Part shown: in pieces, positions 1 through 64,000 of the stretch | Position numbering within the stretch: the stretch's first letter is position 1 | How the letters are laid out: each line of letters begins with the position of its first letter | Program-made: the position numbers and the translations under genes | Notes under the pieces: model-generated | Told to the model about the DNA's origin: nothing | What the model saw: only the letters and a program-made list of their open reading frames with translations | Database searches by the model: none | Origin: Parabacteroides sp. An277 | Lineage (GTDB): Bacteria; Bacteroidota; Bacteroidia; Bacteroidales; Tannerellaceae | Assembly (NCBI RefSeq): GCF_002159645.1 | Contig: NZ_NFJB01000013.1 | Location: forward strand, 1 to 64,000 | Reading direction: 5' to 3' | Length of the DNA: 64,000 bases

Positions 1-8
1 GGAAATTC

Positions 9-213
9 TTTGAACTTATGGAACCATGTGAACAAGGAATAGAAAAATCTTTGAACTCATGGAACCATGTGAACAAGGAATAGAAAAATCTTTGAACTCA
101 TGGAATCATGTGAACAAGGAATAGAAAAATCTTTGAACTTATGGAATCATGTGAACAAGGAATAGAAATATCCTTGAACGCAAAGAATCATGTGAACAAA
201 GAAAAAAGAAGGA
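9..213. repeat. 41-bp tandem repeat array upstream of the helicase gene
   Basis: Five consecutive units start at 9, 50, 91, 132 and 173, an exact 41-bp period. The array may continue left of the window. Each unit carries TTTGAAC, then an inverted pair around CATGGAACCATG, then GTGAACAAGGAATAG. Units 1-4 are nearly identical; unit 5 has decayed most. It ends about 18 bases before the helicase start codon, so it lies in the leader or promoter region. It is not a CRISPR: there are no unique spacers and no cas gene. Confidence 0.93.
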
Positions 214-230
214 AAAGATAAAAATAGAAT

Positions 231-1538
231 ATGGAGGATTTAAAACAAGATAAAATAACGCAAGCCCTGGGGCGGCTGGGCATCCAACAACTGAACGCGA
301 TGCAACAGGCGGCACTGGAGGCGGGGACGGCGCGCGATATGCTGCTGCTCAGCCCCACCGGTTCGGGTAAAACGCTGGCATTCCTCTTGCCCCTGCTTCC
401 GGAGTTGCAAGACACGGGGCGCGTGCAGGTGCTGGTCGTTACGCCGTCTCGCGAGTTGGCGTTGCAAATAGAGCGGGTGTTCCGTGCGATGGGGACGGGT
501 TTGAAAGTGACTTGCTGCTATGGCGGGCATCCTTTCCAAACCGAGAAACGGAGTTTGGCGCAGTCGCCTGCCTTGCTGATTGGGACGCCAGGGCGTTTGC
601 TGGACCACTTGGAGCGCGGCGATGTGGATATGCGCAGCGTGCATACGGTTATTTTAGACGAATTCGACAAATCGCTGGAGATGAAATTCGTGCCGGAAAT
701 GAAGCGCCTATTGGAGCAGATGCCGGGGATACGTCGGCGGGTGCTGACATCGGCCACGGCAGCTATCGAGATACCGGAATTTGTCGGGCTGCGCCGTCCG
801 TTGGAACTTTCGTTCTTGGAGGATAAGCCGCGCGGATTGAAACTCTTTACGGTGCATTCTCCGGAAATCGACAAACTGGATACTTTATATAAATTACTGG
901 GCGAGCTGCAAGGCGAACCGGCGCTCGTGTTTTGCAATTACCGTGAGTCGGTCGAACGCGTGGGCGATTACCTCCGGCAGAAACAGGTGGAGGCTGTTTG
1001 TTTTCATGGCGGGTTGGAACAGCCGGAACGCGAGCAACGCTTGGCGCGTTTGGCGAATGGAAGTACAGCCGTATTCCTTACCACCGACTTGGCAGCACGT
1101 GGATTGGATATTCCGGAAGTGCGCCACGTGATTCATTACCATTTGCCGCTGAACCAGGAGGCATTCGTGCATCGCAACGGACGGACCGCCCGCATGCACG
1201 CAACCGGTACGGCCTATCTCTTGCTCAACCCGATTGAGTCGATGCCGGACTATGTCCCTGCTTCCTTGCCTGAGTTCTTTTTGCCCGACAAAACTCGTGT
1301 GCCGAAACCGGCTGCCTGGGAGACGTTGCTGATAAACAAAGGAAAACGGGATAAACTGAGCCGGGGTGATATTGTGGGCTTTCTTTGCCAGAAGGGCGGA
1401 TTGGCGCCGGAAGAGGTCGGGCGGATTGACGTGTTCGAGTCGTGTGCTTTGGTTGCCGTGCGCCGGGGATGCAAAAAGAACCTGCTGGCGCGTATCCGAC
1501 AGGAAAAAATTAAAAACAAACAAGCCAAATATAGTTGA
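231..1538 (+). CDS. DEAD-box RNA helicase with DbpA-type C-terminal domain
   Basis: ATP-dependent RNA helicase, 435 residues, probably acting on rRNA or mRNA structure in the cytoplasm. Visible motifs are motif I SPTGSGKT (41-48), TPGR (119-122), motif II DEFD (143-146) in place of DEAD, SAT (174-176) and motif VI HRNGRTAR (314-321). The last ~75 residues, rich in Lys and Arg, look like the DbpA RNA-binding domain that directs DbpA to 23S rRNA. DEFD keeps the Walker B Asp-Glu, so activity is expected. The stop codon is five bases before the mtaD start, suggesting co-transcription. Family certain; the DbpA-like ribosome role is inferred. Confidence 0.9.
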   Translation: MEDLKQDKITQALGRLGIQQLNAMQQAALEAGTARDMLLLSPTGSGKTLAFLLPLLPELQDTGRVQVLVVTPSRELALQIERVFRAMGTGLKVTCCYGGHPFQTEKRSLAQSPALLIGTPGRLLDHLERGDVDMRSVHTVILDEFDKSLEMKFVPEMKRLLEQMPGIRRRVLTSATAAIEIPEFVGLRRPLELSFLEDKPRGLKLFTVHSPEIDKLDTLYKLLGELQGEPALVFCNYRESVERVGDYLRQKQVEAVCFHGGLEQPEREQRLARLANGSTAVFLTTDLAARGLDIPEVRHVIHYHLPLNQEAFVHRNGRTARMHATGTAYLLLNPIESMPDYVPASLPEFFLPDKTRVPKPAAWETLLINKGKRDKLSRGDIVGFLCQKGGLAPEEVGRIDVFESCALVAVRRGCKKNLLARIRQEKIKNKQAKYS

Positions 1539-1542
1539 AGAT

Positions 1543-2805
1543 ATGATCAATAAGATACTGATAAAGAATGTGCAGCTGGATATGCGCCCAGTGGATATCT
1601 ATATCGAGAAGGAACGTATCCGGCAAATCGGTGAACAATTGGATGTGCAGGCGGACAAAGTCATTGATGGGACGGACAAAGCCGTCATCCCCGGTCTCGT
1701 AAATGGCCATACGCATGCCGCTATGACGCTCTTCCGCGGTTATGCCGACGATATGAAGCTGATGCCTTGGTTGGAAGAGAAGATCTGGCCAAATGAAGCC
1801 AAGATGCGTGCCGAGGACGTCTATTGGGGTTCGAAGCTTGCTTGCTTGGAAATGATTAAATCCGGGACGACGGCCTTTCTCGACATGTACCAACGCTTCC
1901 GGGCTACGGCCGACGCGGTAAGCGAGATGGGTATCCGTGGATACCTTTCGGCTTGTTGCTTTGATCGCTTCGACCCCGTGCTGACCGAGAAGTGCAAGGA
2001 GGAGTGCGAGCGGCTTTACCGCGTGTCGGATGATTATGGCTCGCGTGTACAATATGCAGTAGGCCCCCATGCCATTTATACGGTATCCGGCGAGTTGTTG
2101 CAATGGATACATGCTTTTGCGCGCGAACGGAAAGTTCGGATTCATCTCCACTTGGCCGAGACGGAAGAGGAGGTGCGTGGCGCAGTCGAGAAGTTCGGGT
2201 TTACGCCCGTGCGTTACCTTTATAAATTAGGAGTCCTTTCGCCGCAATTAGTCATTGCCCATGGTATTTATATCGACGAGGACGAGATACGGATGTTGGC
2301 AGACCATGGGGTGAAGGTAATCCACAATCCGGCGTCTAACCTGAAATTGGCATCGGGTTTCCGCTTCCCCTTCGTCGAGATGAAGCGTGCCGGGATTCAG
2401 GTGGGCTTGGGTACGGACGGTTGTTCTTCATCGAATAATCTGGATATGGTGGAGGCGATGAAATTGGCTGCCCTTGTCGGGAAGGCTTGGCGTAAAGACC
2501 CGGAAGTATTAACAGCACAAGAGGTATTCGAAGCGGCTACGTCTGTCGGAGCGGATATATTAGGATTAGATGCCGGACGTATCGAGGCAGGACGTTTGGC
2601 CGACCTTTGTTTGGTCGACTTGAAGCAACCTGCTTTCGTGCCGAATTTCAATTTCACGTCGAACTTGGTATATGCAGCCAATGGAAGTTGTATCGATACG
2701 GTACTGTGCAATGGGAAGATTGTGATGGAAAATAGGAAAGTCCCAGGCGAAGAGGAAATCTTAGAGAAAACCGCCCGTCTGGCTTACGATTTAATAAGAC
2801 GATAA
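1543..2805 (+). CDS. mtaD: 5-methylthioadenosine/S-adenosylhomocysteine deaminase
   Basis: Amidohydrolase of 420 residues predicted to deaminate MTA or SAH to the inosine forms. Metal and catalytic residues of the family are present: HTH (56, 58), HLHLAE (His203, Glu206), His240 and Asp292 in LGTDGCSSSNN. The ATG at 1543 is preferred to an in-frame upstream ATG at 1366 because the latter lies deep in the helicase gene, and homology begins at INKILIKN. A purine nucleoside phosphorylase follows after 12 bases, consistent with sequential deamination and phosphorolysis. The exact substrate cannot be fixed from sequence; guanine or cytosine deaminase is less likely given the LFRG...PWL block. Confidence 0.87.
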   Translation: MINKILIKNVQLDMRPVDIYIEKERIRQIGEQLDVQADKVIDGTDKAVIPGLVNGHTHAAMTLFRGYADDMKLMPWLEEKIWPNEAKMRAEDVYWGSKLACLEMIKSGTTAFLDMYQRFRATADAVSEMGIRGYLSACCFDRFDPVLTEKCKEECERLYRVSDDYGSRVQYAVGPHAIYTVSGELLQWIHAFARERKVRIHLHLAETEEEVRGAVEKFGFTPVRYLYKLGVLSPQLVIAHGIYIDEDEIRMLADHGVKVIHNPASNLKLASGFRFPFVEMKRAGIQVGLGTDGCSSSNNLDMVEAMKLAALVGKAWRKDPEVLTAQEVFEAATSVGADILGLDAGRIEAGRLADLCLVDLKQPAFVPNFNFTSNLVYAANGSCIDTVLCNGKIVMENRKVPGEEEILEKTARLAYDLIRR

Positions 2806-2817
2806 AAAAGGAAAGAA

Positions 2818-3633
2818 ATGAACAACAACTATGCAGAGACGGCCGCTTACTTGGCCGCGTGTATGAAAGGGAAGCCGGAGACGGCCATTATCTTAGGTAG
2901 CGGACTGGGTTCGTTGGCGGAGCAAATCGAAGAGCCGATAGTGATTCCTTACGCAGAGATTCCGCATTTTGTCCGTTCGACGGCTTCAGGGCATAAAGGC
3001 AATTGGATATGCGGAAAATTGGGTGGAAAACCAATCGTAGCGATGCAGGGCCGTTTCCATTATTACGAAGGGTACACGATGGAGCAAGTGACCTTTCCGG
3101 TGCGTGTCATGAAGCTCTTAGGAATAAAGAACTTGCTTGTCTCGAATGCCGCAGGAGGCATCAATACCTCTTTCAAGGTGGGAGATTTGATGATTATTCG
3201 AGACCATATTAATATGATGCCCAATCCGCTCATAGGTCCGAACGACGAACGCTTCGGGACTCGCTTTCCAGATATGACCCGTGCGTACGACCGCGAATGG
3301 ATTCATTTGATGGAAATCATTGCTTCCGAAAAACATATTCCAGTAAAAAAAGGGGTGTATGTCGGACTTACCGGTCCCTCTTACGAAACTCCTGCCGAAT
3401 ATGCTTTTTATGGTAAAGTGGGGGGCGATGCCATAGGGATGAGTACCGTGCCGGAAGTCATTGTGGCGCGCCATTGTGGCATTCGCGTATTCGGTATGTC
3501 GGTGATAACGAACGAAGGATATCATTTTGCCGATGATTTCGTAAACGATGCGAACGACGTCATCGAAGCTGCCAACCGGGCCGCCGGGCAAATGTCTCAA
3601 CTCTTCGCTTCGCTTATTGCGCGGATGGCATAA
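2818..3633 (+). CDS. Purine nucleoside phosphorylase (trimeric type)
   Basis: 271-residue phosphorylase that cleaves inosine/guanosine-type nucleosides to base plus ribose-1-phosphate. Family signatures seen are GSGLGS (27-32) for phosphate binding, the SGHKG loop, [33 protein letters not shown] and ITNEGY near the end. Length fits the 270-290-residue trimeric PNP family rather than hexameric DeoD. It sits 12 bases after mtaD and probably shares its transcript, so it may accept the inosine derivative made by MtaD. Substrate preference between guanosine, inosine and methylthioinosine is not resolved. Confidence 0.93.
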
Positions 3634-3651
3634 AGGAGTTTCGAAAAAAAC

Positions 3652-3717
3652 ATAGGCATAAACGAAAACAAATATAACGAGAATCGGAAACGAATATAGG
3701 CATAAATCCGGGAAAAA
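3652..3717. repeat. 22-bp repeat array, ATAGGCATAA family (copy 1)
   Basis: Three 22-bp units begin at 3652, 3674 and 3696. Units 1 and 3 start ATAGGCATAAA; unit 2 is diverged (ATAACGAGAA). All carry a GAAA-rich second half. The array ends five bases upstream of the -7 box of the PurF-like gene. Related arrays occur at 31540 and 49454. Confidence 0.7.
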
Positions 3718-3721
3718 TCCG

Positions 3722-3729
3722 TACCTTTG
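3722..3729 (+). promoter_or_regulatory. Promoter -7 box of the PurF-like gene
   Basis: TACCTTTG matches the Bacteroidota -7 consensus TAnnTTTG exactly and lies 27 bases before the chosen ATG. No good -33 TTTG is seen; the ATAGGCATAA repeat occupies that place. Confidence 0.65.
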
Positions 3730-3756
3730 TACGCGGAATACAAGACCTCATATAAA

Positions 3757-5637: not shown

Positions 5638-5682
5638 AAATAAAAGGTAAAAGAACAACTATAACGATACTTATATATAAAG

Positions 5683-6816
5683 ATGAGAAACGTAACTCTT
5701 ATACTCGACGACGGGACGGCCTTCTACGGGAAGTCGTTCGGCTACGAGAAGCCTGTAGCGGGCGAAGTGGTGTTTAATACGGCTATGACGGGATATCCGG
5801 AAAGCCTTACAGATCCTTCGTATGCGGGGCAATTGATGGTCTTGACTTATCCTTTGATTGGTAATTATGGCGTTCCGCCTTTTTCGCTTGCCGAGAATGG
5901 TTTGCCACGCTATATGGAAAGTGAAAAGATTCATGCAGAAGCTATTATTGTGAGCGATTATTCTGCGGAATATAGTCATTGGAACGCCGTAGAGAGCTTA
6001 GGGGATTGGTTGAAACGCGAGCAGATTCCAGGTATCACAGGCATTGATACGCGTGCCCTGACAAAGAAACTCCGTGAACATGGCGTGATGATGGGACGTA
6101 TCGTGTTTGATGCAATGGACAATTCACAATTGACAATGGACAATTACGAGGATGTTAACTATGTAGATAAGGTTTCATGCAAGGAAATCATCGTGTATGC
6201 GAATGATACGGTTCGTTCTTATGCTGTTTCAACTCCGGTTGCGGAACTTAATTCTCTGTTGGCGAATAAGAAACGGGTGGTGCTGGTAGATTGCGGTGTG
6301 AAGACGAATATCATCCGTTGCCTCTTGACGCGGGGCGTAGAAGTAGTGCGGGTTCCCTGGAATTATGATTTCAATCCCTTGGCGTATGATGGGTTGTTTC
6401 TCTCCAATGGACCAGGTGACCCAGACACGTGTGAAGAGGCTGTCGTGAATATCCGTAAGGCGCTGGAAGGAAATCGTCCGATATGCGGTATTTGTATGGG
6501 TAACCAATTGCTTGCCAAGGCGGGAGGCGCGACCATCTATAAGTTGAAATATGGACATCGAAGCCATAACCAGCCCGTGCGCATGGTCGGGACGAACCAA
6601 TGTTTCATCACTTCGCAAAACCATGGATATGCCGTGGATAGCGCGACGTTGGGCGAAGATTGGGAACCGCTGTTCGTGAATATGAACGATGGCTCGAACG
6701 AAGGTATCCGCCATAAGACGAAACCCTTCTTCTCATCTCAGTTCCACCCCGAAGCGTGCGGCGGACCTACGGACACGGAGGCGTTGATATTCGATAAATT
6801 TATCGGGATGCTTTAG
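5683..6816 (+). CDS. carA: Carbamoyl-phosphate synthase small subunit
   Basis: 377-residue glutaminase subunit that supplies ammonia to CarB for carbamoyl phosphate (arginine and pyrimidine synthesis). The class I amidotransferase triad is visible: Cys271 in GICMGNQ, and His355 and Glu357 in QFHPEACGG. The N-terminal CarA domain starts LILDDGTAFYGKSFG. Odd feature: residues about 145-153 (DNSQLTMDN) are encoded by a short GACAATT-rich stretch (6117-6149) that resembles a dispersed intergenic repeat inserted in frame. The stop codon overlaps the first unit of a 23-bp hairpin array. Confidence 0.96.
   Translation: MRNVTLILDDGTAFYGKSFGYEKPVAGEVVFNTAMTGYPESLTDPSYAGQLMVLTYPLIGNYGVPPFSLAENGLPRYMESEKIHAEAIIVSDYSAEYSHWNAVESLGDWLKREQIPGITGIDTRALTKKLREHGVMMGRIVFDAMDNSQLTMDNYEDVNYVDKVSCKEIIVYANDTVRSYAVSTPVAELNSLLANKKRVVLVDCGVKTNIIRCLLTRGVEVVRVPWNYDFNPLAYDGLFLSNGPGDPDTCEEAVVNIRKALEGNRPICGICMGNQLLAKAGGATIYKLKYGHRSHNQPVRMVGTNQCFITSQNHGYAVDSATLGEDWEPLFVNMNDGSNEGIRHKTKPFFSSQFHPEACGGPTDTEALIFDKFIGML
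6117..6149. repeat. GACAATT-type small repeat inside carA
   Basis: The stretch contains GGACAATTCACAATTGACA followed by another GGACAATT, overlapping copies of a motif in alternating orientation. GACAATTGTC and GGACAATTGG recur in the secA upstream gap at 41086 and 41112. In carA it is translated in frame. Confidence 0.5.
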
Positions 6817-6921
6817 GGAACGGTTCCCTACGGATTGAGGGAAGGTCTCCCTAAGCCTTAAGGGAAGGTCTCCCTACGGGTTAAGGGAAGGCTTCCCTAA
6901 GCTTTAAGGGAAGGTTCCCCT
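6815..6921. repeat. Five 23-bp hairpin repeats between carA and carB
   Basis: Units start at 6815, 6838, 6861, 6884 and 6907, an exact 23-bp period. Each has a 15-base hairpin with conserved arms AGGGA...TCCCT, followed by an 8-base spacer such as AAGCCTTA or ACGGGTTA. The first unit overlaps the TAG stop of carA (6814-6816). The array lies wholly in the presumed carA-carB transcript and ends 66 bases before the carB ATG. The short stems have no T-tract, so it is not a standard terminator. Confidence 0.95.
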
Positions 6922-6987
6922 ACAAAGAAAGGCGGGATGCCGGCCTAAAGAAAAAGAACATTAAGAATCAAGAAAAGACAATACGAA

Positions 6988-10212: not shown

Positions 10213-10227
10213 TTATAAAGTAAAAGC

Positions 10228-15523: not shown

Positions 15524-15613
15524 AGGGCAAATATCTTGAACGGCAGGAGAATCTATGTCGATTTTCTCCCGCCTATCACGCGCTTTATCTTCTCTTATGC
15601 TGATTTTATAGCT

Positions 15614-15795
15614 ATTGACTATCCAATCTATATGAATTCGCTTGCGTTTGTATAAATTGACTACTCAATCACTATAAACGCATACATGTTGATATAAATT
15701 GACTACTCAATCCATACGAAATTTATGGTATTTATCCTGATTGAGTACTCAATTCCAATAGATTTAATAGCATAAAATAAAATTGTGTACTCAAT
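15614..15795. promoter_or_regulatory. Five operator-like palindromes spaced exactly 42 bp
   Basis: Fourteen-base sites start at 15614, 15656, 15698, 15740 and 15782. The fourth, ATTGAGTACTCAAT, is a perfect palindrome; the others are ATTGACTATCCAAT, ATTGACTACTCAAT (twice) and ATTGTGTACTCAAT. The 28-base DNA between sites is AT-rich and not repeated, so the constraint is on sites and spacing. The last site ends 58 bases before the -7 box of the DUF6261 gene. I infer a set of binding sites on one face of the helix; the regulator is unknown. With the terminator and hairpin at 15482-15573 this accounts for the 462-base gap. Confidence 0.88.
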
Positions 15796-15853
15796 TGCCT
15801 TAAAAACATATAAAAGAGAGGTGCGGATAAGGGTAGGCGAGCCCAAAAATCAC

Positions 15854-15861
15854 TATCTTTG
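15854..15861 (+). promoter_or_regulatory. Promoter -7 box of the DUF6261-like gene
   Basis: TATCTTTG, an exact TAnnTTTG match, 34 bases before the ATG. Confidence 0.65.
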
Positions 15862-15895
15862 AGCCACGTTACATAGATTAGGAGGAAAAAAGACG

Positions 15896-16654
15896 ATGGC
15901 AAAGCAGATTAGACTATTCGGCATGTCGCGCATGACGGCGGGCTCGTGCGCGCACTATCACGGCGAGGTGGTCCACCTCATCGGCGAGCTGACACCCGAG
16001 GCGCTCGGCATCGCGGACCAATGGCCGGCCTACGCGCGGCAGGCGGCGTTACTCTCTTCGCTCGTTCCCCGTCCGCGCGCGTTGGTGGCTACCCGGCGGC
16101 TGAAGGAATGGGACCGGAAGCGGGTGAACTCGATGGGCGTCATCCACCGGGTGGTGTATGCCTACCGGACCTCCAACGTCCCCGAAGCGCGGAAAGCAGC
16201 CCTGCGGCTCCACGCGCAACTGTCTGGCTATTATGGTGCTTGGAAGCACGAGTACACCCGGCTCTCGTCGGAGGTGCGCGGGATACTTTCCATGTTAGAC
16301 GAGCCGGAAAACGCGGCGGCCGTGGCGCGGCTAGGGTTGGCAGACGAGGTGGAGGCCTTGCGTTCGGCGCAGGCGGGCTTCGAGGAGGCGTTCGACGGGC
16401 GGATAGCGGAGTATGGCGAGATATCGCGGTTGGGCGACATCCAAACGCGCGACGTGCGCCGTGAATTGACCCGCCTTTACGAAGGCATCGTGCGGACGGT
16501 CAATGCCCGCGCGCTGGTGCTCCCCACCGATGCCGTCCGCACATTTGTAGACACGGTAGACGCGATGGCCGAAATGTATCGGCTCATCACCCTCCAGCGC
16601 GGCAAGGGGGCACCCAAGGGGGAATCGCCCGGCAAAAACGAAAGAAACGTCTGA
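15896..16654 (+). CDS. DUF6261-like protein of unknown function
   Basis: 252 residues, predicted soluble and mostly alpha-helical, without signal peptide. It resembles the Bacteroidota-restricted DUF6261 family (recognised from memory, not searched), which often has several copies per genome. The sequence is Arg- and Ala-rich, with no catalytic motif seen, and ends in a charged Gly/Pro/Lys tail. The DNA is clearly more GC-rich than the HicBA genes that follow. The upstream region has five 42-bp-spaced palindromes, unusual for a housekeeping gene and suggesting tight or phase-dependent control. Function unknown. Confidence 0.65.
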   Translation: MAKQIRLFGMSRMTAGSCAHYHGEVVHLIGELTPEALGIADQWPAYARQAALLSSLVPRPRALVATRRLKEWDRKRVNSMGVIHRVVYAYRTSNVPEARKAALRLHAQLSGYYGAWKHEYTRLSSEVRGILSMLDEPENAAAVARLGLADEVEALRSAQAGFEEAFDGRIAEYGEISRLGDIQTRDVRRELTRLYEGIVRTVNARALVLPTDAVRTFVDTVDAMAEMYRLITLQRGKGAPKGESPGKNERNV

Positions 16655-16658
16655 TTTA

Positions 16659-22822: not shown

Positions 22823-23356
22823 TCAAATTTGTATACGGAGTACCGTCCCGTAGGGCAGAACTTGTCGGAAGGCTTCACTAAAGGGGATATCTCCTGTATA
22901 GATTCGGGCAGCCGAGAGTATCCCTCCATGGGTGAAGAGGCATATCCTTTGGGCATCTTGTTGCTGTTTCTCCTCCAGGAAATCAGCGAGGCGGTCATAT
23001 TCTTGCCGGAAGGACTCACCTCCGGGGGTGGGGGTGTTTATCCAGTCGTTCCACCATGTCTGGGAGCGGGTGTCGGTTTGGATTTCGTCCCATGTCTTCA
23101 TTTCCCAGTCGCCGAAGTGGAGCTCACGCAGTCGATTGTCGGGTGTGGCATCGGGGTATCCGCAATAGGTAGCCAGTCGGACACACCGGCTCAGGGGACT
23201 GGTGTAGACTCTGTCGAAGGTCAGTCCGGTAAGTTGTTGCTTTACCTTTTCGGCCTCCTCAGGGAAGGTATCGCGCAGGGAGACATCGGTTTGCCCGTAT
23301 GCCGTCCCGCGCGGTACCTCCACCGAGGTATGCCTTACCAGATAGATTTCCATCAT
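22823..23356 (-). CDS. cobC: Histidine phosphatase, probable alpha-ribazole phosphatase
   Basis: 177-residue histidine phosphatase with LVRHTSVEVPRG (catalytic His near residue 9), SPLSRC and the second catalytic region LFTHGGIL. Residues RELHFGDWE are typical. Linked to cobU, cobT and cobS, so the likely role is dephosphorylating alpha-ribazole-5'-phosphate in cobalamin nucleotide-loop assembly. Start codon overlaps the stop of the HU-related gene (ATGA), so both are translated from one message. Confidence 0.83.
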   Translation of the reverse strand: MMEIYLVRHTSVEVPRGTAYGQTDVSLRDTFPEEAEKVKQQLTGLTFDRVYTSPLSRCVRLATYCGYPDATPDNRLRELHFGDWEMKTWDEIQTDTRSQTWWNDWINTPTPGGESFRQEYDRLADFLEEKQQQDAQRICLFTHGGILSAARIYTGDIPFSEAFRQVLPYGTVLRIQI

Positions 23357-24099
23357 GTCAGGTTCAATTTAAAGGGGGCTTCTATCACGATGGGTTCCGT
23401 CCGTAGTCCTTTCGGGCTGTAGTAGGTCTCCAGTTCCAGGGTATAGGCTCCTTCCGTAAGGTAATCCGGTACGGTAAACACAACAAAGTCTCGCGTGTTG
23501 ACCGCAAATTCCGTAATCTCTTCCGGCTCTTCATTGCTATTGATTAGCCGGACCACTCCGCCCGGTTCCCCCGCTTCGTCCCAAAGCATGATATTCTTTC
23601 CGTACAGCAGGTACTGGCTCCCCCGCTTCGCAGGACCTTTCTTCCCACCTGTGGCACCATCCGTACCCGAAGTGATTTCTGCTTCATTTACCTTTTCTTC
23701 CCCATTCCATTCGTTCCATTCGATTTCGATGTCGGTAAGCGAGCGGTAGGTGCGTCGGTTCCCATCCATACGCTTTGTCTCCGGAATGAAGCGCACACGT
23801 ACACCTGTTATCTGATTCGCATTGACCTCTTCCGGCGTAGCGACACCTTTTCCTTCCGAGATCGCCGTATAGTAGAACGTCCCCAGTCCGTCCAATTTCA
23901 CACTTTTGCCTAATGCCATATAGTCTGCCATGACACCAGCCAAATTTCCCATTACCGCCATTACATCCGCGCGGCTGACCGTAGACATGTCAGATAGGCG
24001 GATAGCAATGCGTTCCGTCGAGACAGGACTGCCCGACAATACGGACTGCGGATACCATAGTCCGTTCACCTTTTGCTGTTTCTTCTTATAAAATCCCAT
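23353..24099 (-). CDS. HU-related DNA-binding protein with extra C-terminal domain (DUF4469-like)
   Basis: 248 residues. The N-terminal ~115 residues resemble the HU-HIG/HU-like DNA-binding domain (STVSRADVMAVMGNLAGVMADYMALGKSVKLDGLGTFYYTA). A Gly/Lys-rich linker follows, then an all-beta C-terminal domain (about 160-248) consistent with DUF4469, an Ig-like fold. It has its own promoter and a 237-base leader bearing five hairpins, and is coupled to cobC. Why a nucleoid-type protein sits inside a B12 gene cluster is unclear; it may be a later insertion. Confidence 0.75.
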   Translation of the reverse strand: MGFYKKKQQKVNGLWYPQSVLSGSPVSTERIAIRLSDMSTVSRADVMAVMGNLAGVMADYMALGKSVKLDGLGTFYYTAISEGKGVATPEEVNANQITGVRVRFIPETKRMDGNRRTYRSLTDIEIEWNEWNGEEKVNEAEITSGTDGATGGKKGPAKRGSQYLLYGKNIMLWDEAGEPGGVVRLINSNEEPEEITEFAVNTRDFVVFTVPDYLTEGAYTLELETYYSPKGLRTEPIVIEAPFKLNLT

Positions 24100-24142
24100 A
24101 TCAGGTAGAATTTATCTTTGATTAACATTTAGAGCGAGCCAA

Positions 24143-24251
24143 GTTAAGTGTCGGACTTAACTAAGTTAACTGTCGGACTTAACTAAGTTAACTGTCGGAC
24201 TTAACTAAGTTAACTGTCGGACTTAACTGAGTTAAGTGTCGGACTTAACTT
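24143..24251 (-). repeat. Five 22-bp hairpin repeats in the leader of the HU-related gene
   Basis: Units start at 24143, 24165, 24187, 24209 and 24231, an exact 22-bp period. The outer units read AGTTAAGTGTCGGACTTAAC(T): an 8-base perfect stem around GTCGG. The three inner units have one mismatch in the left arm (AGTTAACT). The array lies between the mapped promoter and the start codon, so it should be transcribed as a chain of five stem-loops about 45 bases from the ATG. Confidence 0.95.
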
Positions 24252-24342
24252 TCTTAACATTTACTGTGTCGCTTTAGTTGTGTCGACCCGCCTCTTCCAG
24301 CCTGTCAAAGATGGTTAATAACTCTGTTACTTTCGTCGCCTA

Positions 24343-31657: not shown

Positions 31658-31704
31658 CAATCCGAAAATTATAAGAATCAATACAATTATTAAATTTATA
31701 AGAC

Positions 31705-31977
31705 ATGACTAAAGCAGATATTGTTAGCGAGATTTCGAAGAAAACCGGTGTTGACAAACAGACAGTATTGGCCTGTGTGGAGACATTTATGGAGAAAGTG
31801 AAAGGTTCTTTGGCAAAGAATGAGAACGTATATTTGAGAGGTTTCGGTAGTTTTATCGTAAAGAAACGCGCACAAAAGACGGCTCGTAATATCTCGAAGA
31901 ATACAACTATCATTATTCCGGAACACAATATCCCTTCATTCAAGCCGGCTAAGACTTTCTTGAATGACGTGAAATAA
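31705..31977 (+). CDS. HU-family DNA-binding protein
   Basis: 90 residues, the standard HU/IHF fold: MTKADIVSEISKKTGVDKQ helices, LRGFGSFIVKKRAQKTARN beta arm region and IPSFKPAKTFLNDV end. Bends and compacts DNA. It is a general nucleoid protein and a possible ligand of the phased repeat arrays (speculative). The tiny bS22-like gene follows after 37 bases. Confidence 0.95.
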   Translation: MTKADIVSEISKKTGVDKQTVLACVETFMEKVKGSLAKNENVYLRGFGSFIVKKRAQKTARNISKNTTIIIPEHNIPSFKPAKTFLNDVK

Positions 31978-34404: not shown

Positions 34405-34604
34405 TTTTACTCTTTTTTTATACTGGTAAATATTTTAGCTGCGCTTTTACCCTTCTTTTTGCATAGTAAAATCTTGAACTTGCGTTTTACTATACAGGAA
34501 GAAGGATAAAAGCAATATTGGAAATTTTACTCTGTATATGGAAGGGTAAAAATATAGGCTGGGATTTTACCCTGCAGCATGTTTGGTAAAATTCCTATCC
34601 ATTT
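34405..34604. repeat. Five 40-bp repeats upstream of the AraC-type gene
   Basis: Units start at 34405, 34445, 34485, 34525 and 34565, exactly 40 bp apart. Each begins TTTTAC and carries the inverse motif (G)GTAAA or GATAAA 21 bases later, so TTTTAC and GTAAAA alternate about every 20 bp. The remaining sequence is variable. It lies 50-250 bases upstream of the AraC-type start and downstream of the ABC-F terminator. Confidence 0.9.
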
Positions 34605-34671
34605 TTTTTTTATTTATGTGTGAATTAGGTAAAATACTATGAGAAAATTTTTCTGGAAAAGCATTGGAGGT

Positions 34672-44052: not shown

Positions 44053-44289
44053 CGAATAATGTGGAAAATGCCCGCATAAAAGTTCGTTTTAGAAAACAGC
44101 ATATCCTATTCATCTCCATTGGAAGCACTAACCGGACGGGGAAACCGCCCAACTATGCGTAACCGGCTACGTGACGCGAAGCTACACCTGCGGATGGCAA
44201 ATCCCTCCCACGGGGCGACCTCGAAGGGTCTTTCGCAGTGCGGCCTATTTCGCAGGAATGAAGGAAACGATACGTCAAGAAGGTCGTAA
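44053..44289. other. Intergenic DNA of unknown nature upstream of the 41-bp repeats
   Basis: About 240 bases between divergent promoters with no convincing gene. Small potential hairpins are visible (GGGGAAACCGCCC, CGTAACCGGCTACG, GACCTCGAAGGGTC). It is unlike any riboswitch consensus I know (no cobalamin, TPP or NiCo core). Confidence 0.4.
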
Positions 44290-44390
44290 AATTTTTTTGC
44301 AAACCCGCCAGCGGCGCTGGGAGGCCAGAAAAATTTTTTGCAAGCCTGCCAGCGGCGCTGGGAAGGCAGAAATTTTTGTTGCAAAGGTGC
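44290..44390. repeat. 41-bp repeat, two full units and a partial third
   Basis: GCAA(A/G)CC(C/T)GCCAGCGGCGCTGG starts at 44299 and 44340, and GCAAAGG at 44381: 41 bp apart each time. Every unit follows a poly-A/T stretch (AAAATTTTTT) and contains the hairpin CCAGCGGCGCTGG. It is located 120 bases upstream of the NikR-like promoter. Confidence 0.85.
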
Positions 44391-45025: not shown

Positions 45026-46906
45026 ATGAAAAGAAGACATGTAATTTTGGGATGCGCTTTAGGAGCGGTCTCTTGGGCGATGGCAGAGACGCCTTTGGAA
45101 GTAGATAGTTTGATTCACCTGAATAGTGTGGTGGTTTCGGCCAACCGCATCGAAGTGAACCGGAGCAGTGTCCCGCTCACTATCTCGATTGTAGACCGCG
45201 AGCGGATAGAGAGCAGCAGCGAATCTGCGCTTTTACCGGTGCTTTCCGAGCAGGTGCCGGGTTTGTTTGTGACGGAAAAGGGTATCACGGGTTTTGGCGT
45301 TTCGACTGGTGCGGCAGGTACGATTAATATCCGTGGTGTGGGTGGAGGAAACAAGGTGTTGGTCCTCTTCGACGGGCAACCGCAATGGGCGGGATTGTTT
45401 GGCCATTCTTTGCCAGATACCTACGTGGCGTCTGATGTGGAGAAGGTCGAAGTGATTCGCGGTCCGGGTTCGTTGCTATATGGTTCGAATGCGATGGGCG
45501 GTGTCATCAATATCATTACAAGAAGGCACCACGCGCAAGGGCGGAAGACGCAAGCCCGCCTCATGTATGGTTCCTACAATACGCAAAAGTATATGGTGAA
45601 CAATGGGTATAACATCGGGAATTTCAGTAGCTTTGTTTCCATTAACCACGACCGTACGGACGGGCATCGCCCCAACTCCGACTTCTGGATAACGAACGGG
45701 TTTGCCAACTTGGGGTATCGTTTCAACGACCGATATAAGATGACGGGAGACATCAGCCTGGCCAAGTATAAATTCCAAAACCCAGGCGAAGTCTCTAATC
45801 CCATATTTGATAATAAGATGGATATCTTCCGCGGCACCAGCTCTTTGGGCGTAGAGAACCATTACGAGAAGGCAAGCGGTGCGCTCCGCGTCTTTTATAA
45901 TTGGGGAAACCACCGCATTAACGATGGCTATCATGCCGGAGAGCAGCCCCAGACATACCTCTTCCGCTCGACCGACCACAACGTCGGCGTGCAGCTCTAT
46001 GAATCGTTCCGCCTCTTTACGGGCAATCACTTTACGGTGGGCATCGACTATAAAAATTGGGGTGGACATGCGTGGAACGACAATAACGACGGGACGCGGA
46101 CAGAGACCATCGACAAGTCGGTGAGCGAGACGGCTGCCTACGTCATCATGCAGCAGGATTTCTTCGAGAAGTTGGGTGTGAATGCAGGTGTCCGATACGA
46201 GCACAACAGCATGTTCGGGGGCGAATGGGTGCCGCAAGCCGGACTGACGTTCCGTCCCTTCGAAGGGAATGTCTGGAAAGCCTCCCTCTCGAAAGGGTTC
46301 CGCAGCCCGAATATCCGCGAATTATATATGTATATGCCCGCCAACCCCGATTTGCAGCCAGAGCGCATGATGAACTATGAAATATCTGTGGGGCAGACCT
46401 TCCTCGACGGGCAATTGAATGCGGAAGTCACGGCTTTCTTTATCGATGGGAAGGACATGATTCGCGTAGCGCAGGTTGATGGCCGTCCGCTGAACGTCAA
46501 TACCGGTTCGTTTATCAATAAAGGAATAGAAGCAGAGGTGAACTACCAGATACTGAAGAACCTCTCTTTCCATACGAACTACAGCTACCTGCACCAAAGC
46601 GACCCGATAGCCGGCGCGCCGGAGCATAAGTTTTACGCCGGAGCCACCTATGCGCCAGGGCGTTTTACCTTTAACCTCGGCCTCCAGTCTGTCTTCGGGT
46701 TGTATACGGACGAAGCCTGCACGAAACAGGAGGATTACACCGTCCTCAATGCCCGTGCCGCTTATCATTTCGGTCCGGCTTCGCGCGAGAAGGGGCTGGA
46801 CATCTTCCTGAAAGGCGAGAACCTGACCGCCACCCGCTATCAGATAAACGATGGTTTCCCGATGCCCAAGGCCATCTTCATGGGCGGCATCGACGTGACG
46901 TTCTGA
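45026..46906 (+). CDS. TonB-dependent outer-membrane receptor
   Basis: 626 residues: signal peptide (about 1-20), plug domain (about 30-150; VVVSANRIEV, SVPLTISIVDRERI, EKVEVIRGPGSLLYGSNAMGGVINIIT) and a 22-strand barrel ending in an aromatic residue (IDVTF). Size and plug resemble BtuB/FecA-like metal-complex or siderophore receptors rather than SusC; no SusD partner or carboxypeptidase-like N-terminal domain. Downstream of the NikR-like gene, so a metal complex is a plausible ligand. Its TGA is the first base of a 23-bp repeat array. Confidence 0.92.
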   Translation: MKRRHVILGCALGAVSWAMAETPLEVDSLIHLNSVVVSANRIEVNRSSVPLTISIVDRERIESSSESALLPVLSEQVPGLFVTEKGITGFGVSTGAAGTINIRGVGGGNKVLVLFDGQPQWAGLFGHSLPDTYVASDVEKVEVIRGPGSLLYGSNAMGGVINIITRRHHAQGRKTQARLMYGSYNTQKYMVNNGYNIGNFSSFVSINHDRTDGHRPNSDFWITNGFANLGYRFNDRYKMTGDISLAKYKFQNPGEVSNPIFDNKMDIFRGTSSLGVENHYEKASGALRVFYNWGNHRINDGYHAGEQPQTYLFRSTDHNVGVQLYESFRLFTGNHFTVGIDYKNWGGHAWNDNNDGTRTETIDKSVSETAAYVIMQQDFFEKLGVNAGVRYEHNSMFGGEWVPQAGLTFRPFEGNVWKASLSKGFRSPNIRELYMYMPANPDLQPERMMNYEISVGQTFLDGQLNAEVTAFFIDGKDMIRVAQVDGRPLNVNTGSFINKGIEAEVNYQILKNLSFHTNYSYLHQSDPIAGAPEHKFYAGATYAPGRFTFNLGLQSVFGLYTDEACTKQEDYTVLNARAAYHFGPASREKGLDIFLKGENLTATRYQINDGFPMPKAIFMGGIDVTF

Positions 46907-47018
46907 GCGAAGCCTTCGCACAGAGCTGCGCGAGACCTTCGCACAGTCCTGCACGAGGCTTTCGTGCAGCTCTGCTCGACACTCTCGTGCAGCCCTGCTC
47001 GACGCTTTAGAGCAGCTC
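46904..47018. repeat. Five 23-bp hairpin repeats starting at the TonB-receptor stop codon
   Basis: Units start at 46904 (the TGA itself), 46927, 46950, 46973 and 46996; a partial sixth reaches about 47034. Each has arms such as TGCACGA/TTCGTGCA (unit 3), GCGAA/TTCGC (unit 1) and TGCTC/GAGCA (unit 5) around a 3-6-base loop, then (C/A)AG(C/T)(T/C)C. The arms change together between units, so pairing is retained although the bases differ. Confidence 0.93.
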
Positions 47019-47088
47019 TGCTCAGGGTGTCTGAATAAAAGGAAGTGATTAAGGCATGAAAAAAGAGGGGAAAGTCCGTTATTTATTG

Positions 47089-47126: not shown

Positions 47127-49445
47127 ATGTATAAGAAACTCGTGTGGATGTGTGCCGTGTCCGGGGCATTGCTTGCAGCAAGCGGATGCACAAATACGGC
47201 ACAACAGGGACAGGTAGCGGAGATTAACATCATCCCCGAACCGAAATCAATGCAGGTATCGAATGGTGTGTTCACGTTGAAAGACGGGATGACGATAGGC
47301 TATTCAGATGCCTCGCTTCGTCCGGCAGCGGAATATTTGGCGGTGATGCTGAGCCGACCGACCGGATACCAATTTGTTTTGCAGGAGGGAGAAGGGGCGG
47401 CGATACAACTCTCGTTGTCTGCCGGAGCTCCTGTGAAAGAGGGTAGCTATGCACTGCAAGTCGGGAAAAGCAAAGTGAGCGTCTCTTCTTCGAACTATGC
47501 CGGTGTGGTAGCCGGAATCGAAACGATTCGGCAGTTGTTTCCAGCCGAGATAGAATCGGAGCGTGCGTTGGAAGGAGGAACATGGACGATGCCTGTCGTG
47601 TCGATTACAGACGAACCCCGTTTCGGTTGGCGCGGTTTGATGCTCGATGTCTCCCGCCATTTCTATACGAAAGAGGAGGTCAAAGAGCTGTTGGATTTGA
47701 TGGCACTCTACAAGCTGAACAAGTTCCATTGGCATCTGACGGACGACCAGGGATGGCGTATCGAAATCAAACGATATCCTTTATTGACCGAGAAAGGCGC
47801 CTGGCGTACGTTTAATGCGCACGACCGCGAGTGCATGCGCCGGGCCAAGGCGGAGCATAATCCCGACTTCGAGATTCCGGAGGAGAAGCTGAAGATTGTA
47901 CAGGGCGATACGCTCTACGGTGGCTTCTATACGCAAGAGGATATTCGGGAGGTGGTGAAGTATGCGGCCGTGCGCGGCATTGATGTGGTACCGGAAGTAG
48001 ACATGCCGGGACACATGTTGGCGGCGGTAAGCAATTACGAGGGCGTTTCTTGTTTCCGCGAGACCGGCTGGGGTTCGATGTTCTCTTCGCCCGTTTGCCC
48101 GGGAAAAGAGAGTGCCTTGGAGTTTTGTCGGAACGTATATGCCGAAATCTTCCCGCTTTTCCCCTATAAATATGTGCATTTGGGAGCCGATGAGGTAGAG
48201 AAGACCAATTGGAAGAAATGCCCCGATTGCCAGAAACGGATGCGCGACAAGGGATTGAAGACGGAAGAGGAATTGCAGGCCTGGTTCGTCCATCAGATGG
48301 AAGACTACTTCCGGGCGAACGGCAAGGAGCTGATAGGTTGGGATGAGATTATCGAAGGAGGATTGTCGGAGACGGCTACAGTCATGTGGTGGCGGAATTG
48401 GAATCCGGAGGCGGTACCTACGGCCACGGCACAGGGTAATCCCGTCATCTGTTGCCCCAATGCCTATTTTTATCTCGATTACCAACAGGATAAATACTCC
48501 GTACGTAATATATATGAATATACCTTGGCTCCGGATTCGCTCAGCGATGCCCAGCGTGCGTTGGTATTAGGTGTGCAAGGCAATACGTGGTGCGAGTGGA
48601 TTCCTTCCCGCGAACGGATGCAATACATGGTTTTCCCAAGGGCGTTGGCCATTGCGGAATTGGGATGGAGCGACCCGGCACAGGGTTATTGGGAAGAGTT
48701 CGAACAGCGCATGATTGGGCAATTCCCCCGTTTGAGCCTCATGAATGTAAACTATCGGATGCCGGATTTGACCGGTTTCCATAAGGTAAATGCTTTTGTA
48801 GGCGAAACGGATGTCGAGATAGTTTCGCCCGACCCCAGTGTGGAAATCCATTATACGACCGACGGAAGCATACCTTCGCTCGAATCGCCTCTCTATACTG
48901 GTCCGATAAAGATTACGGAATCGACCGATTTCATCTTCCGCTCTTTCCGTCCGAATGGTAAAGCCGGGGATTTGTTCCATACCTCTTACCTGAAGCAAAC
49001 GTATGCTCCGGCGGTAGAAGCTTCGCCCGAAAAGACCGGTTTAAGAGCTTTCTGGCATGAATGCAAGGTGAATAAATGCACAGACATCGACTCCTATCCG
49101 GTAAAAGCCTCTTACGAGATTGCCGATGTGGCTATTCCGCAAGGCGTGAAAGGTGATATCGGGTTGGTTATTAAAGGTTATTTTAACGCGCCACAGGATG
49201 GTGTCTATTCGTTTGTCTTGCTTTCGGACGATGGAAGCGTGCTGAAGGTGGACGATGCCGTGGTTGTGGACAACGATGGCCCGCACTCTCCGCAAGAACT
49301 CTCCGGGCAGCGTGCTTTGGCGAAAGGACTCCATCCGATCGAAATCCGTTATTTCGACAATAATGGCGGTACGTTGAAATTGGAAGTCCTTGACCCTTCC
49401 GGAAAAGTCATGCCTTATACCGAAGGCATTTATGCCTATGAATGA
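47127..49445 (+). CDS. GH20 beta-N-acetylhexosaminidase lipoprotein with PA14-like domain
   Basis: 772 residues. Lipoprotein signal (lipobox ASGC near residue 17). GH20 N-terminal domain (about 30-160), catalytic TIM barrel (about 160-510) with HWHLTDDQGWR and the catalytic pair Asp355-Glu356 in HLGADEVEKTNW; a chitobiase C-terminal Ig-like repeat (VEIHYTTDGSIPS, about 560-625); and a C-terminal PA14-like domain (about 650-765; DGVYSFVLLSDDGSVLKVDD). Likely removes terminal GlcNAc/GalNAc from host glycans at the cell surface. Confidence 0.95.
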   Translation: MYKKLVWMCAVSGALLAASGCTNTAQQGQVAEINIIPEPKSMQVSNGVFTLKDGMTIGYSDASLRPAAEYLAVMLSRPTGYQFVLQEGEGAAIQLSLSAGAPVKEGSYALQVGKSKVSVSSSNYAGVVAGIETIRQLFPAEIESERALEGGTWTMPVVSITDEPRFGWRGLMLDVSRHFYTKEEVKELLDLMALYKLNKFHWHLTDDQGWRIEIKRYPLLTEKGAWRTFNAHDRECMRRAKAEHNPDFEIPEEKLKIVQGDTLYGGFYTQEDIREVVKYAAVRGIDVVPEVDMPGHMLAAVSNYEGVSCFRETGWGSMFSSPVCPGKESALEFCRNVYAEIFPLFPYKYVHLGADEVEKTNWKKCPDCQKRMRDKGLKTEEELQAWFVHQMEDYFRANGKELIGWDEIIEGGLSETATVMWWRNWNPEAVPTATAQGNPVICCPNAYFYLDYQQDKYSVRNIYEYTLAPDSLSDAQRALVLGVQGNTWCEWIPSRERMQYMVFPRALAIAELGWSDPAQGYWEEFEQRMIGQFPRLSLMNVNYRMPDLTGFHKVNAFVGETDVEIVSPDPSVEIHYTTDGSIPSLESPLYTGPIKITESTDFIFRSFRPNGKAGDLFHTSYLKQTYAPAVEASPEKTGLRAFWHECKVNKCTDIDSYPVKASYEIADVAIPQGVKGDIGLVIKGYFNAPQDGVYSFVLLSDDGSVLKVDDAVVVDNDGPHSPQELSGQRALAKGLHPIEIRYFDNNGGTLKLEVLDPSGKVMPYTEGIYAYE

Positions 49446-49519
49446 AAACGATTATAGGCAGAATCGAAAAGGAAAATAGGCATAATCGCGAGCGAAATAG
49501 CCTGGATTCAGAAAAAGAA
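49432..49519. repeat. 22-bp repeat array, ATAGGCATAA family (copy 3)
   Basis: Units start at 49454, 49476 and 49498 (ATAGGCAGAATCG, ATAGGCATAATCG, ATAGCCTGGATTC), exactly 22 bp apart; a diverged unit at 49432 covers the last codons of the GH20 gene. TGCCTAT (49434) and ATAGGCA (49454) can also pair. The rest of the gap is filled by the rpmB promoter and leader. Confidence 0.8.
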
Positions 49520-50413: not shown

Positions 50414-50435
50414 TATTTTGTATCGAATAAATCCT

Positions 50436-51648: not shown

Positions 51649-51658
51649 AAAGAATGGC

Positions 51659-53586: not shown

Positions 53587-53687
53587 AGGTGCTTGGATTC
53601 CCATTTTTGGAGACCTCCGTGTGAGTATTTGAGCATTCCTGGGTATGGGAATACGCTTGGATTACATTTTTTAGAGAAAACGAAGAA

Positions 53688-54887: not shown

Positions 54888-54908
54888 GTAATTTAAAAAG
54901 GGAATAAG

Positions 54909-55820: not shown

Positions 55821-55826
55821 GTAGTT

Positions 55827-57491: not shown

Positions 57492-57547
57492 ACTTCGCGG
57501 TCTCCAGGCGTGTCTTAAAGACAAGTATAAACGAAAAAAGAAAGGTT

Positions 57548-58294: not shown

Positions 58295-58297
58295 CGT

Positions 58298-58316
58298 TTT
58301 CGGACACTGTCCGAAA
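58298..58316. terminator. Perfect palindrome after the His/Pro-rich gene
   Basis: TTTCGGACA C TGTCCGAAA: 9-base arms about one central base. No T-run of a classic terminator; it has the same odd-centre design as the 21-bp palindromes at 63830. Confidence 0.6.
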
Positions 58317-58373
58317 GTCCCGCATCCTCCGAAGAAAAAGGTAAAAAAGTTTAGAATTTATAAATAGGAACGT

Positions 58374-61812: not shown

Positions 61813-61819
61813 GATTGTT

Positions 61820-63550: not shown

Positions 63551-63727
63551 TATATTATTTTTCTTTTTTATCTGTCTTAAAGGCTTCCCGTCCTTTAGGA
63601 GGAGGAAGCAAAAGGGCATGGCCCGTTTTCAATTTGTAAAGGTACACATTAAAATCCGTATTTACCCGCTTTGCCCCTGAAAATAGATTTTTTCTTGTTA
63701 TTTTTCTGAAACTACGGGAATGATTTG

Positions 63728-63735
63728 TACTTTTG
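63728..63735 (+). promoter_or_regulatory. Promoter -7 box facing out of the window
   Basis: TACTTTTG, exact consensus. Transcription would start near 63742 and run through the 21-bp palindromes. Between 63551 and 63727 I see only the recJ upstream region (a weak minus-strand TACCTTTA at 63637-63644). Confidence 0.5.
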
Positions 63736-63829
63736 CCTGCGTAAAAACAACCGGAGGAAAAATCGGTACCCTGCCAGGAAAACTTTTCGGGTTGCCTATG
63801 GAAAGTTTCCAAGATAGGCAGTATTTCTA

Positions 63830-63906
63830 TAAATATCGACGATATTTACACAAACATCGACGATGTTTGTATATCTTTAGTCTAAAGATAAAGAAATATC
63901 GACGAT
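63830..63906. repeat. Four palindromes spaced exactly 21 bp
   Basis: Centres lie at 63839, 63860, 63881 and 63902. Sequences are TAAATATCG a CGATATTTA, ACAAACATCG a CGATGTTTGT, TATCTTTAG t CTAAAGATA and AAATATCG a CGATACGT. Three are perfect with 9-10-base arms about one central base. The sequences differ but every arm pair matches. An upstream inverted pair TGCCTAT/ATAGGCA (63793-63820) encloses GGAAAGTTTCC. Confidence 0.92.
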
Positions 63907-64000
63907 ACGTGAAGAAAAGACAGGCAGGAAAGCAAGTTTCCATAGGAGGTTTGGAAAGTTTTTCCGGGTAGCTTTTCCGTTTTGGCTGGGAATAGAAGAT

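Follow-up and report, generated by a model that had tools for sequence, protein, structure and literature searches.

Tandem arrays of fixed pitch beside HU-HIG and DUF6261 genes in Parabacteroides: a seemingly undescribed system in which proteins have repeats of their own

Introduction

That a bacterial gene may live next to repeats of its own is known from several systems. In REP/REPIN systems the gene of a RAYT protein (TnpA-REP) is flanked by its own palindromic repeat, and copies of the repeat are found elsewhere in the genome. Operator and partition arrays, such as iterons, parS/parC and cooperative operators, are tandem dyads at near-helical spacing beside the gene of the protein that binds them. 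We here deal with intergenic tandem arrays in a stretch of 64,000 nucleotides from Parabacteroides sp. An277 (henceforth the window), with similar arrays elsewhere in the same genome and with those of related Bacteroidales. Arrays are paired with genes of two protein families, HU-HIG and DUF6261; their pitch goes with the family; arrays that lack such a gene carry matching units; two unit families share lattices; and a C-terminus is common to many of the proteins. The expansion of HU proteins in Bacteroidetes was reportedly tied by Burroughs et al. (2017, Cell Cycle) to a role against invasive elements; that work is not known to mention arrays.

The nearest described repeat found in the open-licence literature, as far as its source was available, is BrickBuilt of Porphyromonas gingivalis, a minisatellite or miniature inverted-repeat transposable element (MITE). 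It is intergenic, has a 23-nt tandem unit, occurs in 19 copies in one genome and varies in unit number between strains (PMC4596501). According to the available parts of the source it is a single sequence family, which has a leader and a tail and ends in small inverted repeats, and no partner gene is reported there (PMC4596501). Searches of the open-licence literature for intergenic tandem repeats of given lengths in Parabacteroides or Bacteroidetes found none. An HU-HIG protein is named there once, in a table, as far as the text was accessible, and DUF6261 likewise once; DUF4469, which will be met below as a tail domain, was not found there.

Sample and scans

Contig C7 (96.7 kb), whose first 64 kb make up the window, belongs to a draft genome (G000) of 3.68 Mb in 101 contigs. 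In the plasmid collection its carB is most similar to that of Parabacteroides distasonis (78%), and among the genome contigs searched the best match comes from a Parabacteroides metagenome-assembled genome (89% protein identity). Arrays were detected with Tandem Repeats Finder and an ungapped autocorrelation scan, a score of 22 being the threshold for an array. The base periods of a few arrays vary slightly between scans, because no more than three alternative periods per array had been retained. The own-genome sample amounts to 427,046 bases, i.e., the window plus 20 stretches that were partly picked: those on C22, C33, C38, C25 and C21 were chosen for a query match there. Eight Markov-2 renderings of the own intergenic DNA, 401,960 bases, served as chance control. 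Genes were called as simple open reading frames (ORFs). The stretches from relatives have mostly round coordinates; some lie around carAB and one around an array match. The closest relative among the genomes compared is G026.

Two classes of unit length

A first-pass annotation of the window had listed ten arrays with units of 21-23 or 40-42 bp. All ten are present at or near the positions given there, and seven reach the threshold. The two peaks of unit length, which the annotation expected beyond the window, are indeed found there. The own sample contains 54 arrays at a score of at least 22, of which 22 have periods of 21-24 bp and 26 periods of 40-43 bp; one has a period of 39, none falls between 25 and 38, and five have others (11, 18, 44, 83 and 120). 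Contig C1 alone (200 kb) holds 19 arrays of period 39-44, 12 of 21-24 and one other. In the own sample, unit lengths are thus neither broadly distributed nor confined to the window. The control yielded no array at score 22 in about 402 kb, which rules out a chance origin, and the arrays across the own sample outside the window rule out a purely local feature. Extrapolated from the 26 + 22 arrays in the partly picked 427 kb, the genome may hold a few hundred intergenic arrays. Contigs C1, C7 and C33 start within 41-bp arrays. The arrays therefore probably break the assembly, and their counts may be low.

Five units per array had also been suggested. Several window arrays comply; as a rule the number is rejected by the distribution, since the mode is four in the 20-24 class (10 of 22 arrays) and five in the 39-44 class (9 of 28, range 2-10). 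An unusually long 22-bp array of 16.5 units lies at L043:798-1161; its unit drifts gradually and resembles the array of the HU-HIG gene L208.

The lengths had further been read as two or four turns of the helix. Unit length is a real constraint, but the classes follow two protein families, not helical multiples. The mean period is 41.3-41.5 bp for DUF6261 (3.94 turns) and 22.1-22.3 bp for HU-HIG (2.1 turns), and at 10.5 bp per turn the 22-bp class is off by about 40 degrees per unit. A three-turn class of 31-32 bp does not exist in the own sample. The related idea of a common helical face fits the 41-bp class well and the 22-bp class roughly.

DUF6261 genes and 40-43 bp arrays

DUF6261 has 38 matches in the own genome and not one in the 14 control genomes. 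Upstream of 37 of the 38 loci lies an array of period 40-43, L246 being without one at threshold. The distance from array to start is 86 bp in the median and 482 bp at most. Within -70 to 300 bp an array is present at 36 of 38 DUF6261 genes; among the remaining ORFs of the own sample it is 16 of 320. The Fisher p of 1.6e-36 for the linkage was computed with 37/38 versus 16/320.

The pairing extends to relatives. G026 has 36 DUF6261 matches; besides L215, 18 of the other 35 were fetched, and an array of this class stands at each of the 18. Of 24 loci examined in the genus, 19 have the array, and three of the five misses offer less than 260 bp of upstream sequence; this count omits four weak, broken or edge loci of the 28 fetched (L237-L240), of which L237, L239 and L240 have no 40-43 bp array and L238 has a 43-bp array at the edge. 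In the order sample, 32 of 295 genomes encode DUF6261, spread over 19 of 183 genera. Outside the window's genus, one locus was taken from each of 27 of these genomes; 22 have a 41-43 bp array upstream, 20 of these within 500 bp. On a contig of a Bacteroides sp. metagenome-assembled genome (L118), too, an array at 15775-16018 precedes the DUF6261 gene at 16058.

The stretches sampled from genomes poor in DUF6261 are free of these arrays. In 480 kb from G002, G028, G004, G012, G015 and G009 (0, 0, 3, 1, 4 and 7 DUF6261 genes, respectively) there are no 40-43 bp arrays; in 295 kb of G026, G027, G036 and G033 (36, 52, 34 and 26 genes) there are 24.

The motif TAnnTTTG, that of the Bacteroidota -7 box, stands between array and start at 15 of 34 own DUF6261 loci versus 1.5 in shuffles. 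Most DUF6261 paralogue pairs have unrelated units of equal period, and some close ones share units (L081/L083). The DUF6261 genes at L075, L080, L082, L086, L091 and L244 are followed downstream by short arrays with a period of 14 (AATTGTCAATTGTC-like), and some HU-HIG genes by others with different units; they are possibly a separate MITE-like repeat.

HU-HIG genes and 21-24 bp arrays

HU-HIG (PF18291) matches 27 proteins of the own genome, 26 of them above cut-off. The period scan finds a 21-24 bp array that ends within about 120 bp of the start at 16 of the 27 genes, the figure for the remaining ORFs of the own sample being 19 of 320 (p 1.9e-11). L194 raises the count to seventeen, with a mixed array that had escaped the period scan. 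Counted by type, an array precedes all eight genes with an immunoglobulin-like (Ig-like) tail, three of four whose product has the length of a winged helix-turn-helix (wHTH) form, six of 13 short or other ones and neither of two fragments; L194 is included here, the wHTH class was set by length and eye, and its member L196 resembles a cut Ig tail. In the genus, 9 of 13 HU-HIG proteins of wHTH length have the array, with 3.7-4.0 units in those nine. Six 22-23 bp arrays were found in 120 kb of G002, which has 17 HU-HIG matches, and none in 80 kb of G028, which has five.

Membership in the HU superfamily makes it likely that HU-HIG proteins bind DNA. A nucleoid-like binding protein, as guessed in the first-pass annotation, fits well, because many of the 21-24 bp arrays precede genes of this superfamily.

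Anatomy of the units and mixed lattices

Most arrays consist of head-to-tail units that are conserved over the whole unit. Divergent arrays keep only short cores, at exact steps of 42 bp (15614-15782) or 40 bp (34405, with half-steps of about 20); the step stays exact while the spacer sequence drifts. On average the units exceed shuffled units in dyad symmetry in all four sets, and 26 of 96 reach 8 of 9 pairs. A GGAAA/TTTCC core, weak as it is, occurs in 39 of 96 DUF6261-linked units versus 7.1 in shuffles, related paralogues being counted apart.

Two unit families share one 21-bp lattice: A, i.e., TATCTTTAnnnTAAAGATA, which forms the array of the HU-HIG gene L197, and B, i.e., TATCGACGATA. 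The order B-B-A-B at 21-bp steps was retrieved by pattern search at three loci (window 63828, L050 and L194). A fourth locus is L042, whose A unit departs from the pattern by one letter. One of the four mixed arrays precedes a second HU-HIG gene, L194. In the A-type four-unit arrays L052:9649 and L054:5047 (partly also L038:13183) the flanking bases stay complementary though the letters differ (TTATTCTC/GAGAATA and AAAACTC/GAGTTTT), as if a stem were kept.

Arrays without a partner gene

Unit-to-unit matching relied on an ad hoc score judged against shuffles. Among the gene-less 39-44 bp arrays of the own sample, 12 of 25 match a DUF6261-linked unit (at most 1 of 100 shuffles being as good) and none of the 25 an HU-linked one. 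Of 21 gene-less 20-24 bp arrays, i.e., 18 over threshold plus three weak ones of the window, six match an HU-linked unit; in the control comparison, 1 of 18 matched a DUF6261-linked one. The B unit of L194, whose array was absent from the library of HU-linked units used for matching, is carried by three others of the 21 (L039:34, L050:6136 and window 63811). The match of L037:19085 to L081 extends into the flanks, and this array may be a decayed copy of a whole L081-like locus.

The earlier statement that unit sequences are unrelated between loci has to be given up in part: several window units recur elsewhere, and the arrays at 3644 and 49444 have a common family. These two weak arrays (3644-3706 and 49444-49497) lie 46 kb apart and share ATAGGCATAA..CGAAAACGA.

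Gene-less arrays of the 41-bp class occupy 8 convergent, 9 co-directional and 4 divergent gaps, four of the 25 being unplaced for want of a gene on one side. Those of the 22-bp class occupy 0, 12 and 2, respectively; all gene gaps counted amount to 34, 125 and 34. When the masked 500-bp flanks of seven array families were compared, with some members' flanks cut by the end of a contig or stretch, four families shared nothing between loci, two shared 21-35 bp, and one (GCAATTCCA, two of its three members gene-linked) shared long flanks.

C-terminal parts common to both families

An Ig-like tail ends 25 of the 38 own DUF6261 proteins. Its homologue in HU-HIG proteins is the DUF4469 tail: L094 and L193 are 37% identical over 100 residues (E 4e-14). 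The Pfam model of DUF4469 itself meets only one of four DUF6261 proteins scanned, at E 0.0064 and below cut-off. The tails are near-identical among many DUF6261 paralogues (L075-L104, L241-L248), the heads strongly different, which suggests gene conversion of the tail or a strong constraint on it.

In five other species both families end in a short species-particular peptide: DSESP(D/S)EI in G004, (D/E)RPGEL in G015, GIPNP in G033, GSP(E/G)(V/T)V in G036 and PVVQ in G027. HU-HIG proteins of relatives also have Gly-rich or acidic C-terminal ends, and other own ones have Ig tails. A DNA pattern for RPGEL followed by a stop, which covers CGN arginine codons only, has 19 matches in G012, G015 and G020 versus none for the reversed pattern. 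By profile, 15 of these are HU-HIG and three DUF6261, one of the latter a 77-codon remnant. The nineteenth, L353, lies just past the DUF6261 match of G012, apparently in a frameshifted gene, and is assigned by its place. The RPGEL codons differ, so conservation apparently acts on the peptide itself.

The window

The arrays and partner genes of the window are compiled in Table 1. Three arrays are weaker by autocorrelation, those at 3644 (22 bp), 49444 (22 bp) and 63811 (21 bp).

Table 1. Arrays and partner genes in the window (positions in bp)
Feature	Position	Strand	Description
Gene-less array	3..203		41 bp x4.9, TTTGAAC..GAACAAG family; matches also on C1, C22, C33; contig start inside
Weak gene-less array	3644..3706		22 bp x2.5; family common with 49444
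Gene-less array	6812..6922		23 bp x4.8, AGGGAA family; between carA and carB, covering the stop of carA
DUF6261-linked array	15605..15796		Five 42-bp units; ATTGACTACTCAAT-like cores at 15614, 15656, 15698, 15740, 15782
TATCTTTG	15854..15861	+	Fits TAnnTTTG; between array and DUF6261 gene, 42 bp before ATG
DUF6261 gene	15896..16654	+	252 aa, without Ig-like tail; about 100 bp past array 15605
HU-HIG gene	23353..24099	-	248 aa, DUF4469 Ig-like tail; start 41 bp from array 24141
HU-HIG-linked array	24141..24257		Five 22-bp units AAGTTAACTGTCGGACTTAACT (22 x5.3)
Gene-less array	34405..34634		40-bp lattice, TTTTAC/GTAAAA half-sites about 20 bp apart; 34405-34592 in the scan, best score at period 120
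Gene-less array	44281..44384		41 bp x2.5; unit matches DUF6261-linked array of L099 (0/100 shuffles reach the score)
Gene-less array	46903..47023		23 bp x5.3; begins at the stop of a TonB-receptor gene
Weak gene-less array	49444..49497		22 bp x2.5; family common with 3644
Mixed array	63828..63911		Three TATCGACGATA-type units, TATCTTTAGTCTAAAGATA third; centres 63838, 63859, 63880, 63901

The DUF6261 protein of the window matches PF19775 with E 4.2e-34 (118.1 bits, curated cut-off 27). The HU-HIG protein matches PF18291 with E 5.5e-18 (65.6 bits, cut-off 26.2), PF14734 with 5.5e-10 and NCBIfam HU_rel with 1.8e-28. The gene-linked arrays at 15605 and 24141 align at orthologous places in G026, while the carA-carB array is absent there, the gap being 20 bp. 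A remnant of an HU-HIG gene, with two in-frame TAA and 33.4 bits, lies on the plus strand at 31699-31977.

What the arrays may be for

We regard it as rather probable, judging from sequence, that the arrays are ordered binding sites for two expanded chromosomal protein families, many genes of which have an array of their own. HU-HIG, with an HU fold and often an extra C-terminal part, would pair with units of 21-24 bp and DUF6261 with units of 40-43 bp. The dyad of each unit would take one protein dimer, and size and contacts of the protein would set the pitch; that the step is fixed is observed. With the pitch set by the protein, the unit sequence could turn over quickly while the step remains. 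Where the array lies upstream of or over the promoter of its gene, the protein probably also controls itself. Gene-less copies of a unit may offer the same paralogue additional sites. The C-terminal part, be it an Ig-like tail or a species peptide, might dock bound arrays to a shared partner or to each other. The outcome would be a network for organising or silencing the chromosome; this, together with self-control, is the most likely role, and a selfish nature of the repeats comes second. Tentatively, the whole may be seen as a protein-satellite system of Bacteroidales: dozens of paralogues with two unrelated heads (HU-type and DUF6261) would have private arrays, the head would set the pitch (about 22 or 41 bp), co-assembly would take place on one lattice, and the species-common tag or Ig tail would lead to one partner, the result being a sequence-addressed network for organising or self-marking the chromosome.

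Not everything favours ordered binding. In ten genus genomes an array lies within 200 bp at only 12 of 30 HU-HIG loci, the short members being mostly without; the 30 were drawn from the top of the list, so that short members with high scores are over-represented. Nor does the density of 21-24 bp arrays go with the number of HU-HIG matches: G036, with 8 of these, has seven arrays in 120 kb, G012, with 14, has one in 80 kb, and G009 (54) and G033 (19) have none in 20 kb each. TAnnTTTG stands between array and start at just 1 of 15 HU loci (0.7 in shuffles) and in 4 of 18 DUF6261 spacers of G026 (1.2 in shuffles). Thirteen of the 38 own DUF6261 proteins end without the Ig-like tail, among them that of the window and one cut by a contig end, and the species tag is mostly absent from HU-HIG of wHTH length and from DUF6261 of other families. 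Of the 46 gene-less arrays, 28 match no linked array and 18 do, and the 8 of 21 placed 41-class arrays that sit between convergent genes argue against a simple operator role there.

The DUF6261 protein itself causes further doubt. Heads that are 90-97% identical can carry unrelated units (L081/L271, L216/L221), and over 96 loci no head region clearly tracks the unit. The first 25 residues looked like a determinant in the pair L081/L271, where the signal was strong, and failed over the 96 loci. Specificity may therefore turn on few residues, or spacing may outweigh sequence. No DNA-binding homologue of DUF6261 was detected; the search against solved structures gave only two matches (E 0.074 and 0.3), which we take as chance. 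The heads are slightly acidic, with a median net charge of -7. DNA binding by DUF6261 is thus argued by analogy, and the acidic head and the lack of a solved homologue leave doubt.

How do other explanations fare? The arrays might be mobile or selfish repeats, founded by a gene with its array, from which gene-less copies were spread by the protein or a host enzyme in the manner of REP/RAYT, any host function being secondary. The 18 matching gene-less arrays would be such copies; the carA-carB array is missing in G026 while the gene-linked ones align; gene-less arrays often begin at stop codons or sit between convergent genes; and L197 has a sub-threshold match to a transposase helix-turn-helix (PF01527, E 0.076, 13.7 bits versus a cut-off of 24.1). 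However, the proteins checked belong to no transposase or nuclease family above cut-off, the seven array families mostly lack the common flanks of mobile copies (see above), and copying alone leaves a fixed pitch per protein family unexplained. Carriage by phages or plasmids finds no support in the respective collections, where the window's DUF6261 protein, the sole query, has no match. All in all, we consider selfish spread unlikely. Quite improbable, too, is a role at the RNA level, in which hairpins lined up in untranslated regions would tune the stability of the mRNA or the expression between cistrons. The units are rich in dyads, 12 of the 14 placed gene-less 22-class arrays lie between co-directional genes, carA-carB for instance, and the outer bases of the A-type arrays L052 and L054 stay complementary, all of which would suit an RNA. 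Yet the own DUF6261 arrays often lie upstream of the promoter-like box, not in the leader, the convergent placement of 41-class arrays does not suit it either, and a linkage to HU-type DNA-binding proteins is not predicted. A known RNA family is not involved in the window, where no Rfam family reaches gathering score.

Tandem repeats homogenise, and their units turn over fast; slippage or unequal exchange with a fixed step could hence be thought to generate arrays irrespective of sequence and without any bound protein, which the first-pass annotation had also considered. Such a process fails to explain why the step length depends on the family of the adjoining gene, why stretches of DUF6261-poor genomes are free of the 40-43 class, how mixed arrays hold 21-bp steps across two unit families and why dyads exceed shuffles; already strongly disfavoured, it is very improbable. 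We give next to no credit to the view that the arrays were merely duplicated along with their genes and are associated by descent, without function. Close paralogues that share units do fit it, but most pairs combine unrelated units with equal period, the pairing recurs in other families with one locus per genome (22/27), and neutral arrays should in time have varied in length and vanished. A known anti-phage defence protein was not found either: none of four proteins tested matches PADLOC-DB.

If the pairing reflects binding by the two families, as we prefer to think, it would provide DUF6261 and the large sets of HU-HIG proteins in gut Bacteroidales with a function and account for the intergenic arrays of the genome. 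HU would no longer be seen as an unspecific packer, but as a family whose sites are addressed. The pairs would form a natural set of proteins and sites in which spacing is fixed while sequence changes. They would thus offer a direct way to study the co-evolution of DNA-binding specificity and satellites, and possibly a source of orthogonal DNA-addressing parts.

Comparison with known systems

By Pfam, the proteins encoded behind the 21-24 bp arrays belong to a catalogued family, HU-HIG (PF18291; NCBIfam TIGR01201, HU_rel); two were tested against the NCBIfam model and fit. A pairing of HU-HIG genes with arrays, a fixed pitch, a mixed lattice or a shared C-terminal tag did not come up in the searches of the open-licence literature. 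From sequence comparison, the gene-paired arrays of fixed pitch would seem to form a hitherto undescribed system in which proteins and repeats are matched.

BrickBuilt, as far as its source was seen, resembles the 21-24 bp class in being a tandem unit of 23 nt between genes of Bacteroidales. It differs in that the arrays here comprise many unit families, most without shared flanks, and are paired with genes. A MITE of that type, with common leader and tail and inverted-repeat ends, is not supported, as only one of the seven array families compared shares long flanks. The likeness to REP/RAYT lies in a protein gene beside its own repeat with copies elsewhere in the genome. Here, however, the partners are DUF6261 or HU-HIG, the genome has a single Y1 transposase (a PF01797 match on C64), which speaks against a RAYT and against selfish spread in general, and the repeats are tandem arrays at fixed pitch instead of paired palindromes. 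CRISPR, with identical repeats, unique spacers and cas genes, would probably differ in that most arrays here are conserved over the whole unit. With operator and partition arrays they share tandem dyads at near-helical spacing next to the gene of a candidate binding protein. The differences are that dozens of paralogous pairs are present per chromosome, with two family-set pitches, and that a C-terminal part is common to unrelated head domains.

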